From: Diaporthe sp. PMI_573
Lineage: Eukaryota > Ascomycota > Sordariomycetes > Diaporthales > Diaporthaceae
Assembly (NCBI GenBank): GCA_021399435.1
Contig: JAJTUP010000059.1
Location: 310,001-374,000 of the forward strand
Direction of reading: 5' to 3'
Length of the DNA: 64,000 bases
The first letter of the stretch is position 1. Each line of letters opens with the position of its first letter. Positions 1,766 to 63,533 of this stretch are shown in pieces. Both the position numbers and the translations under genes were made by a program. The notes under the pieces were generated by a model. That model saw nothing but the letters and a program-made list of their open reading frames with translations. It was not told the origin of the DNA and did no database searches.

Positions 1766-4700
1766 CTAGATCGTCAACGTGCCCGTCAGCGGCAAGTCCC
1801 TGCTGCTAGATCCCACGTAGAGCGGGTAGTCACCCTTCTGCAACAGCCACTTCTGCGCCGTGACGTCCCACGTGCTCAGGTCTCGCCTCGTCAGGGGGAA
1901 CTCGACCGTCGCGCTCTGCCCAGCCTCCACCACCGGCTTCTCAAACCCGCGCAGCTGCTTGACTGGCCCGCCTGCGATGCCCACGTAGAGCTGGGCGATC
2001 TCGGCGCCTGTCACGTTGCCCGCGTTCGTCACAGTCGCGGAGACGGTAGCAACGACATCCCACAGGTCCACCTGGCCGCCCTCGAGCACCTCGCCGGTGG
2101 GGTACTCATCGGTGCTGACGTTGGACGATGCCACGGAGGCAAGATCGCTGTACTCGAAGCTAGTGTAGCTCAAGCCGAAGCCGAACTCGTACCGGGGCGT
2201 GATGTTCTTGGCGTCGAAGGCGCGGTAGTCGATATACACGCCCTCGGAGAAGTCGCTCTGAGGGAAGAGCGCGTAGATGCCATCAGGCTGCGTTGCGTTC
2301 TGCAGGCCCGCGTAGTCGCTCTCGTTCCGCGGCACGCTGTACGGGAGCTTGCCGCTGAAGTTCTCGTCGCCGTAGAGCAGCGACACGAGCGCCTTGCCGC
2401 TGTCCTGACCAGGGACGTGCGCAAAAATCAGTGCCGTCACATTCGGGTGGTCGATAAACTGATCCACAAGCCGAACGCCCGAGTTTTGGAAAATGACAAT
2501 TGTGTTGCTACAATTAGCTGCCACGTTGAGGATGATGCTATCCGTGTCTGTTTGAAATTAGCCGTTAAATATCGATGGACTGGGTGCATTATTTGTGGGT
2601 TTGGGGGATGCATATCGGACTGGTGTTGGTCCAGCATGGAACATGACCAAGTTGAAGGAAGGGTAAATGCATTGCTAAGATCCACTTACAATCGTCCCTT
2701 AGACTCGGCCTGTCCGAGCCCTCTGCAGCATTCAGAGTCAGTTATCAGAGCACCAAAGGGAGTGGTTTCGTACAAATAGAGGGGGGGGGGGATAAAGGGC
2801 CGCAGAGGGTAGGTGTTTCTTCTGGGAGGGGTTGAGATTGTATCCAGAAGCTGCTTACCAGTAGCAAAGACGTTGACGTCCACAATACAAGCATCGGAGG
2901 TCGCATCCACATACGGGTTTGTGCTGTGGAAGTCCCAGTACAGCGCGGTGAGGTCCTCCTGCGCTCGTTCCGTGAGCGCTTGAAAGGGCGAGGAAATCCA
3001 CGGGGGCTGACTGGCTCCTGAACCTCCACCAGAAATGATTGTACCGTTCCGCGCAATTCCTGATGTGACGCCGGATACGAAGCTGCCTGTCCCGTTGTAA
3101 TCCGCGCCATACGCCAGTGGATATGAACCTCCGTTGAACCCAAAGGATCCGACGTTGTACTGGTCTGGAGTCTTGGCGGAGTAGCCGAAAACAGAGATGA
3201 GTTCGGGAGACTTGAGTGGCAAGGAGCCCTCATTCTTCAGGAGAACGTGGCCTTCGAGCGCACCTCGGTAGAGCGTGTCCTTGAAAGAGGCGTTCCATCC
3301 GATCACTCTTGTGTGCGGCTGAGACAGGTCCTCGGGAATGCCAGAGCCTGGCACTGGAAGATCGCTCGCGTCCTGGCCCATCTGGTACCATGCTGCAATG
3401 ATGCGTGTCGCCATATCGTCCAATCTCACCTCGGGCACTGAGCCGTTGTTCACTGCCTCGACCAGATTGGCTCCCCAGTACGTAGCACCGCTAGGCTAAG
3501 TATTACGTTAGTCCTGCTACAGATCCTAAAGTGGTGCGTTCTGGAGCATTCCAAAACATAAACAGACGGGGATCCGTAGGAGAAGAGTGATGCTTACCAT
3601 CACCATATCAAGGCCCGCAAGCGCCGACCCAACACCAGAGTGCTGGCCAAACCAGTCCGACACGACAAAGCCCTGGAACCCAAGCTCCGTCTTTAGCAGG
3701 CCATTCTGGGTATAGCTGTTGTCGCAAGCCCAAGAACCATTGACTTTATTGTAGGAGCTCATGATATTGCCGGTGCCGGCCTTTACTGCGTCTTGAAATG
3801 GCCTTTGAAGAGAGTCAGCTGAATCCCGCAGACCTTATCAAGGGGAAGATACCTACCAGAGGTATAATTCATGGATGGTCTTATCGTCAATGTTAGAGGA
3901 GACAGAAGAGACGTTACCATCAGGGTTGCGGTTTGTCTCTTGCTCGTTGCCGATAAAATGCTGTTGTTCATGTCAGTCTTCACACACACACAGCAGCAAG
4001 CCCTATCTGGTGCGCGAGACTCACTTTGACGCTTGTAATCACGCCAGTGGACTGCACGCCCACCACAGTCTCATAGGCGAGTTGTCCTGTTAGATACGGG
4101 TCGTTGGAAAATCCCTCCCAGTTTCGGCCGCTGGAGGCGATACGTCCGAGGGGACCCACGACTGGGCCGAGCATAACGTTTGAGCCTTTCTTATAGAACT
4201 CCTCTAAGTATGACGTTAGTCTTGCTACGGATCCTAAAGTGCTGCACTCTAGAACATTTCAAAACGCGAAAGACGGGGGGGGTCCGTGGCAGGAGAAGAG
4301 TGATGCTTACGGCCCATCCCAACAGCACGCTCATGGGCCAACTCTCGGTTCCATGATGCACCAACAGACCAGCCCGCTGCCCACGCTGAGACGTAGTCTG
4401 CGCTGCGCAAGCCGTTGCCCGCGTCGGAGAGACACAGTCCTGGGAAATTCAGGCGCGGAATGGAGGCAATGAAGCCCGAGCAGCCTGTTGACGAGGTGAT
4501 TCCACCAGTCAGGTTGACCTATGGAGCATACAGAGTCAGCTTGTGTTGTTGGAAATGAGAGGCTAGGCGATACCAAGACTGCGATGCAAAGCATACCTTC
4601 TCCTCGAGGGTCAGTTGTCCAACAAAGGCTCTTGCCTTGGTGTATGCCTCTGCCCAAGGGCCACTCCCAGTGCCATTTGGGCTCGGGTATACCGGTGGGC

Positions 4701-4803
4701 TCAGCCCGTAGAACACAGTATCATCTGTGATGATCTCCTGGGCATTTGTTACTTGTCCCCATGCGAGAAGGCCAACGAGGCCGTACAGCATAGAGCCTGC
4801 CAT
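1766..4803 (-). CDS. GH3 beta-glucosidase, secreted, eight exons
   Basis: Exons 4803-4597, 4518-4311, 4203-4025, 3960-3857, 3802-3598, 3495-2859, 2722-2690 and 2547-1766 join in phase to a 784-residue protein. It has a signal peptide (MAGSMLYGLVGLLAWG) and the GH3 N-terminal barrel with GPVVGPLGR, RNWEGFS and KHFIGNEQE. The nucleophile Asp is near residue 282 in FVVSDWFG. A C-terminal alpha/beta and fibronectin-III-like part follows. Such enzymes release glucose from cellobiose and other beta-glucosides outside the cell. Two introns (4204-4310 and 3496-3597) are introner family A and one (2723-2858) is family B. Exon 7 is only 33 nt and is needed to complete the conserved EGSDRP segment. Intron 1 ends in a sequence resembling the 3' end of family B. 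Confidence 0.9.
2723..2858 (-). repeat. Introner family B, copy 1 (GH3 intron 6)
   Basis: 136-nt intron splitting a Glu codon of the GH3 gene. Its first 30 nt match the SDR intron at 49797-49967 at 26 positions, including GTAAGCAGCTTCT. Its last 35 nt match at 30 positions, including CTGACTCTGAATGCTG before the YAG acceptor. The middle differs in length and sequence. The host genes are unrelated and 46 kb apart, so shared descent of the host exons cannot explain it. Confidence 0.8.
3496..3597 (-). repeat. Introner family A, copy 1 (GH3 intron 5)
   Basis: 102-nt phase-0 intron between ATG (Met) and CCT (Pro) codons. In sense order it holds GTAAGCATCACTCTTCTCC, the arm CTACGGATCC, the core TTTATGTTTTGGAATGCTCC, the arm GGATCTGTAG, then GACTAAC and a TTAG acceptor. 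The arms pair with one mismatch. Confidence 0.92.
4204..4310 (-). repeat. Introner family A, copy 2 (GH3 intron 2)
   Basis: 107-nt phase-1 intron splitting a Gln codon. It shares with the other copies the start GTAAGCATCACTCTTCTCC, a C-tract after the left arm (CCACGGACCC), the TTTAGGATCCGTAGCA block, the GACTAAC branch site and the acceptor ACTTAG. Its left arm carries two changes from the consensus. Confidence 0.92.
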
Positions 4804-61933: not shown

Positions 61934-63533
61934 ATGTATCTGCAGGCATCCATTGCAGTCGCGCTCCTGGCCCTTCCGGCAGTGCAAGCAAACCTCAATC
62001 AGCTAGCTCAAGCTGCTGGGAAATTATATTTCGGCTCAGCAACTGATAACTCCGAGCTGTCTGACTCTGCATATGTTGCTATCTTGTGAGTCTTATGAGC
62101 AGGCCAAGCATGATGCAGCATTCAGTCTAATCCATTGAATCACCTAGGTCAAACAAGAATGAGTGGGGCCAAGTAACACCTGGAAATTCACAGAAATGGG
62201 GCTGTACGTTGGTTATTCCTCTCTGGGAAAATCTGATTTCCAGTACGCCATGCATGAGATGCCCAACTAATACATCCACAGATACAGAACCGACACAAAA
62301 CACCTATAGCTACACGCAGGGGGATGTCGTCACGAATTTTGCCGCATCCAACGGGCAGATACTGCGATGCCACACTCTCATCTGGCACAACCAGCTACCG
62401 AGCTGGGTCACCTCAGGCACCTGGACAAATAGCACGCTCGCAGCCGCCATCCAAGCCCATATTGCTAGCGAGGTGGGCCATTACAAGGGCAAATGCTATG
62501 CCTGGGACGTTGTGAACGAGGCCCTCAATGATGACGGTACCTGGAGGACAAGTGTCTTTTACAATACAATGGGGACTTCGTATCTCCCTGTAGCCTTTGC
62601 TGCTGCCGCCGCTGCAGATCCGGCCACCAAGCTCTACTGTCAGTGCCCCTCGTGCTTTGTTTTGAAAGAAACGTCGCTTGATCAACCCTACCAGTCAGAT
62701 CACTCGATCTTGGCCCTGCTATTAGATGATATGATGCTGATTCCTGTTGAACAGACAATGACTACAACATTGAATCCTCTGGAGCGAAATCTGCGGCCGC
62801 TGTCAATTTGATCAAGACCATCCAGGCTGCGGGGGCAAAGATAGACGGGGTCGGCCTGCAGGGCCACTTCATCGTGGGATCCACGCCCAGTGCATCCGCA
62901 CTCACGAGCCAGCTGAACATTTACGTCGCCCTCGGCCTCGAGGTAGCTTACACCGAGGTCGACGTCAGGTTCTCGAGCCTTCCGTCGACAGCGGCGGGTC
63001 TTGCGCAGCAAGCAACGGACTATGGCTCTGTTGTCAGCGCTTGTCTTGCCGTCAGCAAGTGCGTGGGGATCACTGTGTGGGATTTTGATGACAAGTACTC
63101 ATGTAAGCATAAGTGCTTTTTCCTTTTTACGGTTCCCGGTCTGTTGTGTGCCGAAACATTCCGGAATGCATCACTCTTGGCTATGCAATAGGTGATTAAT
63201 TAACACACACTAGGGATCCCCAGCACTTTCTCCGGGCAGGGTGACGCTTGTCTGTACTGGGCAAACCTGACCACGAAGCCTGCCTACGATAATGTGAGGA
63301 AACTGCTGGCAGCGGCAGCGGGGACGACTCTACCAACGGCCACGGCCACCACGCTGTCTAGCAGCACGACGAGGGCGTCGACGACCACGACTGTCTCGTC
63401 CGCCACGGCCACGGGTACGAACGAGGCGGCGCACTGGGGCCAGTGCGGTGGTCTCAGTTGGACTGGCCCCACGGTCTGCGCATCACCGTACACTTGTACG
63501 GTTTCGAACCCTTACTACTCCCAATGCTTGTAG
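61934..63533 (+). CDS. GH10 endo-1,4-beta-xylanase with C-terminal CBM1
   Basis: Exons 61934-62085, 62148-62203, 62282-62638, 62755-63102 and 63214-63533 join in phase to 410 residues. A signal peptide leads into YFGSATDNSEL. The acid/base Glu is near 149 in WDVVNEALND, and the nucleophile Glu near 256 in YTEVDVR. HTLIWHNQLPSW and GITVWDFDDKYSW are further GH10 blocks. A Thr/Ser linker (about 345-375) joins a fungal cellulose-binding module (HWGQCGGLSWTG, with the paired Cys and aromatic residues) that ends at the stop. Secreted; hydrolyses xylan while bound to cellulose. Intron 4 (63103-63213) is a diverged introner family A copy; the others are not recognised as repeats. Confidence 0.93.
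63103..63213 (+). repeat. Introner family A, copy 10, diverged (GH10 intron 4)
   Basis: 111-nt phase-1 intron splitting a Trp codon. Collinear with family A: GTAAGCAT, a CTTTTTCCTTTTTACGG segment in place of CTTCTCCTTCTACGG, CCCGGTCT, GAAACATTCCGGAATGCA, TCACT, AGGTGATTAA and ACACTAG. The inverted-repeat arms have decayed. The most diverged copy. Confidence 0.78.

Follow-up and report, generated by a model that had tools for sequence, protein, structure and literature searches.

Ten introns within a 64,000-nt stretch of the genome of Diaporthe sp. PMI_573 (Ascomycota, Sordariomycetes, Diaporthales) are almost certainly copies of one family of fungal introner-like elements (ILEs), which we call family A. 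The stretch, referred to as the window, comprises positions 310001–374000 of contig C173 (JAJTUP010000059.1; 375371 nt) in an assembly (G000) of 83.7 Mb and 217 contigs. Taken as a whole, the observations are best, and quite probably correctly, explained by an ILE that has multiplied in this genome, is spliced from the transcript of each host gene and is copied via RNA. The origin of new spliceosomal introns is an old open question, and this genome offers two abundant, partly young families (A and a second family, B); hundreds of copies in unrelated genes provide a large natural sample for how introns are born.

Ten family A introns of the window

Eight of the introns lie on the reverse strand. 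A GH3 gene contains 3496–3597 (phase 0) and 4204–4310 (phase 1; Pfam GH3 match on the downstream piece only). Five introns interrupt a single GH28 gene, namely 14031–14099 (phase 2, with an internal deletion), 14383–14486 (phase 1), 14583–14677 (phase 1, degenerate, with a deletion), 14807–14910 (phase 1; Pfam GH28 122–167 on one side, 173–208 on the other) and 15654–15757 (phase 1, the top-scoring copy of the window). The eighth, 50376–50482 (phase 2), belongs to a short-chain dehydrogenase (SDR) gene with a Pfam adh_short match on its downstream piece. On the forward strand 58267–58343 (phase 1, 5′ part deleted) separates Pfam NPP1 30–72 from 79–187 in an NPP1-domain gene, and 63103–63213 (phase 1, diverged) is located in a GH10-CBM1 gene. 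The introns at 3496, 14031, 14383, 14583 and 15654 were assigned by profile match and open reading frame (ORF) frames, the one at 63103 by profile, frames and Pfam.

The original prediction had proposed ten related introns at these positions. All ten are present, start with GT and end with YAG on the implied strand, and take exactly the first ten ranks, with E 4.5e-31 to 2.4e-12, when their own profile is run against the 64-kb window. The remaining 11 profile matches are nine opposite-strand matches to the copies themselves (six with E 1.9e-5 to 1.4e-3, three with E 0.055 to 1.7) and two chance places (E 1.2 and 2.7); beyond the ten, the profile search revealed no recognisable family A member in the window. 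A single collinear sequence had been claimed for all ten. It is complete in six, while the copies at 14031, 14583 and 58267 carry deletions and that at 63103 is diverged; the motifs quoted as shared are consensus-like rather than invariant.

Removal of each intron had been stated to restore the reading frame, and the flanking phases match in 10/10 cases (phase 1 in seven, phase 2 in two, phase 0 in one), as judged from separate ORFs without joining exons; the exons of the NPP1 gene were likewise searched apart. Wherever both sides score, the Pfam pieces are collinear across the intron, as in GH28 and NPP1. No Pfam match was obtained for 4/10 pieces of one set (one GH3, three GH28) and 2/9 of a second (one SDR, one GH28), and the host of these pieces was assigned through neighbouring pieces. 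GH3, GH28, SDR, NLP (NPP1) and GH10 were all recovered by Pfam on exon pieces. Thus the five unrelated hosts stand as named, with five of the ten introns sharing one GH28 gene. Beside the 3496–3597 junction (window 3490–3600) the GH3 protein is about 6 residues short (MPSG vs MPGDTMFNSG in 5nbs); judging from this alignment, the missing residues may have been deleted at the insertion site or close to it.

Family A across the genome

A genome-wide search, suggested together with the original prediction, gave 273 matches to the family A 3′ pattern CACTTTAGGATCCGTAGCAGG (≤3 mismatches), compared to 1 for the reversed control. GGATCCGTAGCAGG occurs exactly 81 times (reversed control 0), a 25-letter pattern from the 5′ half 96 times (control 0), and BLAST with one copy yielded 285 candidates, of which 40 were scored and 40/40 matched. 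The 3′ pattern recovers 8/10 window copies and 16/26 copies that did not seed a fetch, which gives roughly 440 recognisable copies (273 / (16/26)), an estimate from a small sample. Large-scale intron gain had been suggested from ten copies in 64 kb: hundreds of copies do exist, but with 8 of the 273 pattern matches the 64-kb window exceeds the genome mean about 38-fold, and its rate cannot be extrapolated.

In total, 84 distinct copies were gathered from 59 sources (the window and 58 fetched loci, L001–L058; 207 kb). The loci were picked by similarity to family A, so that degenerate copies are under-sampled. Six 5′-truncated copies and two without an AG in range were excluded from the phase test (n = 76); the identity matrix comprises 75 copies and the structure count 68. 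Nearest-neighbour identity has a median of 92% and reaches 99% (n = 75), which indicates that part of the spread is recent. Family A is a U2-type intron of about 104 nt with a GACTAAC branch site about 10–12 nt before the acceptor and a YAG or AAG end. Exactly 104 nt up to the first acceptor were counted in 40/76 copies; donors are GTAAGC (40), GTCAGT (16), GTTCGT (10) and others, and first acceptors TAG (49), CAG (20) and AAG (7).

A codon-usage score, trained away from family A copies, was applied to both flanks for comparing the phases. They agree in 67/76 copies, compared to 27% at random places, and agreement falls to 2 and 7 copies when the downstream side is slid by one or two bases. 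Where both flanks score >2 as coding, agreement is complete (38/38). The sense coding score exceeds the antisense score in 70/76 copies. About 3 of the 76 copies lack an assigned coding exon. If left unspliced, 66 of the 67 phase-agreeing copies would shift the frame or hit a stop (in-frame stop in 58, frame-shifting length in 55, neither in one). The sole copy that can be read through, L049:582-689, measures 108 nt, has a 4-nt GCAA insertion and contains no in-frame stop. Phases 1/2/0 are represented by 40, 16 and 11 of the 67 copies (bias P 2e-5). C at position −2 was observed in 27/40 phase-1 copies versus 43% at third codon positions, somewhat above codon use.

For host assignment one flank piece each from 50 of the 58 fetched loci was compared to Pfam. 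A match at E ≤ 0.001 was found for 35/50 pieces, 33 of them above the curated cut-off. The host families are diverse and include MAPEG, an OPT transporter, alternative oxidase, a fungal rhodopsin domain, sugar transporters, fungal transcription-factor domains, GH18, GH2, peptidases S10 and S58, and ribosomal protein eS17. Where paralogues carry copies, these are located at different places. This applies to the GH3 genes of the window and of L013, in which each of three comparable sites is uninterrupted in the other gene, and to the sugar transporters of L027 and L053. Among the rhodopsin-family genes, copies interrupt L001 near profile position 65, L039 near 82 and L016 near 136, and the L001 piece (66–147) is continuous across the L039 and L016 sites. 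Such sites, empty in paralogues within this genome, point to recent gain. None of 34 copies from multi-copy loci has its nearest relative in its own locus (0/34), so that local duplication is not the source. The proposal of an introner-like family is borne out by hundreds of matches in the genome search, by sampled copies that are nearly all exonic and in sense orientation, and by these empty sites.

The gene for eS17 was found at one place in the genome search and holds two family A copies; a family B copy immediately precedes its exon. On solved eS17 chains one exon piece stops at residue 47 and the next begins at residue 49, which leaves a single junction codon (48). Because this sole eS17 gene, expected to be essential, bears two copies, splicing of family A in the cell is strongly implied by the gene structure.

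The boundaries of the copied unit were compared with those used for splicing. Flank duplications at k = 2 and 4–7 showed no excess that would indicate a target-site duplication (TSD) at family A copies; at k = 3 the excess was weak (3 vs 0.93). A preference for proto-splice sites (AG|G) was rejected, as AG precedes the intron in only 1/76 copies. Comparison of all 168 flanks of the 84 copies revealed no longer repeat carrying family A in the fetched DNA; flank matches between different places were confined to neighbouring A or B copies or GH3 paralogues. An AAG directly follows the first acceptor in 16 copies, 10 of which read CAG-AAG, mostly as GACTAACAGCCAGAAG, and the similarity among copies likewise extends to the AAG. 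Splicing at the first AG would produce a TAA codon at the junction in 5 of the 10, splicing at the AAG in none. In the GH3 gene of L013 the upstream piece ends at residue 323 of 5nbs (308 of 4iib) and the downstream piece starts at 325 (310), a gap with room for exactly one junction residue (TGG). As judged from these junctions, the copied unit ends at the very nucleotide that splicing uses. This favours copying at the RNA level over a DNA transposon and is what mobility of the excised intron RNA would predict.

Family B, a nested copy and scaffold distribution

A second introner-like family, B, ranges from 136 to about 200 nt and reads GTAAGCAGCTTCTGGATAC ... GCTGACTCTGAATGCTGCAG. The genome contains 219 matches to its 3′ pattern (control 0). 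The fetched sequence contains 12 copies, located in the window (two), L006, L008, L019, L020, L025, L033, L036, L041, L045 and L054, and 12/12 have the orientation of the A copies with which they share a gene or locus. A later profile search added a partial copy in L005, which has the opposite orientation and lies 1.4 kb away from A copies. Both window copies are on the reverse strand and share their genes with A copies: 2723–2858 (136 nt, internally shortened) is located in the GH3 gene, and 49797–49967 (171 nt) in the SDR gene. Elsewhere in the window, 35371–39036 (forward strand) is a 1221-aa open frame with PCA1-type heavy-metal and E1-E2 ATPase domains.

In L041 (388-677, reverse strand) an A copy sits between letters 2 and 3 of the donor of a B copy; without the A copy this donor reads GTAAGC. 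The A copy is young, being 98% identical to copies elsewhere. From its sequence, L041 is plainly recognisable as a newborn [D2,3] stwintron (spliceosomal twin intron), formed by insertion of one introner into another. PMC5639578, in the part bearing on this point, leaves open whether the internal introns of stwintrons arrive by insertion or mature in place; in L041 insertion is plain.

Both families are gathered on a minority of the scaffolds. Sizes are known for 35/217 contigs, which were partly chosen for having matches and cover 79/81 exact A matches. Twelve contigs (10.1 Mb) account for 60 exact A matches and for 19 of 32 exact B matches, compared to 8 exact A and 6 exact B matches on 18 contigs with 30.1 Mb. 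The contigs were grouped by A density, so that the contrast for A is partly built in; this does not apply to the contrast for B or to the rank correlation of A and B densities per contig (0.59, P 1.8e-4, 35 contigs). Rich in both families are C35, C160, C161, C169, C173, C177 and C196, in contrast to C2, C57, C152 and C207. A mixture of two organisms is unlikely to underlie the clustering, as the searches for Prp8 and eS17 returned a single place each. Prp8 shares 99% identity with the Diaporthe eres protein and 88–92% with those of other named Sordariomycetes among the matches listed. L002, L014 and L055 contain a CCTCC/GGATA-rich repeat, possibly a minisatellite; the L055 copy has no clear host gene.

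Copying route and comparison with known systems

The family A consensus contains the hairpin arms CTACGGATCC/GGATCCGTAG, extended by TCCT/AGGA, which constitute a near-terminal inverted repeat. Internal symmetry is likewise apparent from the opposite-strand self-matches of the window copies. It amounts to 16.8 in family A versus 10.2 in shuffled sequences and 10.3 in exon controls, and is more pronounced where a copy has close relatives (rho 0.56), a correlation confounded with closeness to the consensus. Symmetry of the ends is weak, confined to one subfamily and judged by eye, the arms being near-terminal and not at the very ends. Hairpin z scores of the window copies were −3.99 (14383–14486), −3.96 and −2.81, and −1.58 to +0.76 for the other seven. 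RNA structure as the conserved feature is not supported: RNAalifold returned no long hairpin on either 10 or 68 copies. A named 23-pair hairpin has 90.8% paired cells compared to 36–55% when slid, as is expected for a hairpin drawn from one copy, and its 2 double changes versus 3.4 in shuffles give no sign of compensatory change. Rfam detected nothing in the window at gathering scores. We attribute the symmetry to the ancestral element and suppose that it decays after insertion.

Copying of family A through RNA is likely, not proven. On this model the excised intron RNA would insert by reverse splicing, either into the growing transcript or into the DNA strand displaced in an R-loop; insertion would take place at a largely arbitrary position and would then be fixed as DNA. 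More tentatively, we suggest that the spliced RNA itself is copied, that the spliceosome reverse-splices it into transcribed DNA and also into other introners, and that a permissive part of the genome is favoured, the same scaffolds being enriched in both unrelated families. If this is true, reverse splicing of A into a B donor, as in L041, represents a direct route to the birth of a stwintron. Internal markers that help to separate RNA from DNA copying are provided by the CAG-AAG ends and by the A copy nested in B.

Several observations weigh against this interpretation. The near-terminal inverted repeat and the imperfect full-length palindrome are transposon-like and have no role in plain reverse splicing. 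Neither the phase-1 bias nor the scarcity of copies outside coding sequence is expected from random insertion into transcripts, which also include untranslated regions, and the clustering of both families on scaffolds is not explained by RNA copying. In addition, the phases disagree in 9/76 copies in the automatic test. Manual reading of the exon pieces resolved the mismatch in L008, L016, L044 and L046, a second acceptor that in L025:2526, and the one in L041 reflects the nesting of the copy in another intron; L021, L033 and L055 are without an assigned gene.

The transposon-like features would fit a DNA transposon of the type of miniature inverted-repeat transposable elements, with splice sites at its ends and a transposase acting in trans, whose sense copies in exons are tolerated because they are spliced. 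An origin from transposons with splice-site-bearing ends is proposed for many algal introners, and the inverted repeat, the opposite-strand self-match and the symmetry above controls agree with it. Yet a TSD signal is missing, the unit begins with GT and ends with AG, copies outside assigned coding exons are scarce, and 70/76 copies score higher in sense; no longer relative was detected among the fetched flanks, the whole assembly not having been searched for a transposase-bearing one. We consider this origin rather improbable. The seamless insertion without motif or TSD would also result if double-strand breaks were closed by end joining with capture of double-stranded intron copies, a route suggested for Hypoxylaceae (stw)introns, with the symmetry protecting the RNA; the higher symmetry of copies with close relatives, confounded as it is, points in the same direction. 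Capture at breaks, however, predicts many intergenic copies in both orientations, and few if any are seen, so that this route also appears unlikely. Descent of old shared introns, or local tandem duplication or gene conversion within genes, could be suspected from the five copies in one GH28 gene and from the paralogous families carrying copies. It is hardly credible, as the hosts are unrelated, the paralogues (GH3, rhodopsins, sugar transporters) carry their copies at different positions and none of the 34 copies mentioned above has its nearest relative in its own locus.

Family A is a known kind of element in an order, Diaporthales, that is new for introners as far as the searched open-licence literature shows: no introner report for Diaporthe or Diaporthales was found there, and reports on Sordariomycetes include Hypoxylaceae. 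The original prediction had pointed to the ILEs of Dothideomycetes. The kind of element is the same, the host belongs to the Sordariomycetes. As described for Fulvia fulva, Dothistroma and Zymoseptoria (PMC4457414), near-identical canonical introns occur by the hundreds in unrelated genes, with several families per genome, decay towards ordinary introns and genes with multiple insertions. A codon-phase preference and an AG/GY preference are attributed to the original fungal ILEs in PMC8469720; family A shares the former and lacks an AG|G preference.

Like introners derived from DNA transposons (PMC9860276), family A consists of repeated introns enriched in genes. According to that survey, many such families have TSDs and terminal inverted repeats, and the ascomycete families are outliers with neither; family A has no TSD and yet possesses near-terminal inverted repeats. 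With the introns described in PMC12403724 it shares seamless insertion, the lack of a TSD, function on the coding strand only, imperfect symmetry, empty paralogue sites and, in part of the copies, a TTCTAGAA-like centre. Those introns number tens of copies per genome, compared to hundreds for family A, and no phase-1 bias is among the features reported for them in the relevant part of that source, whereas family A has one. Finally, family A is a simple intron and thereby differs from the [D1,2] stwintrons described in PMC12403724.

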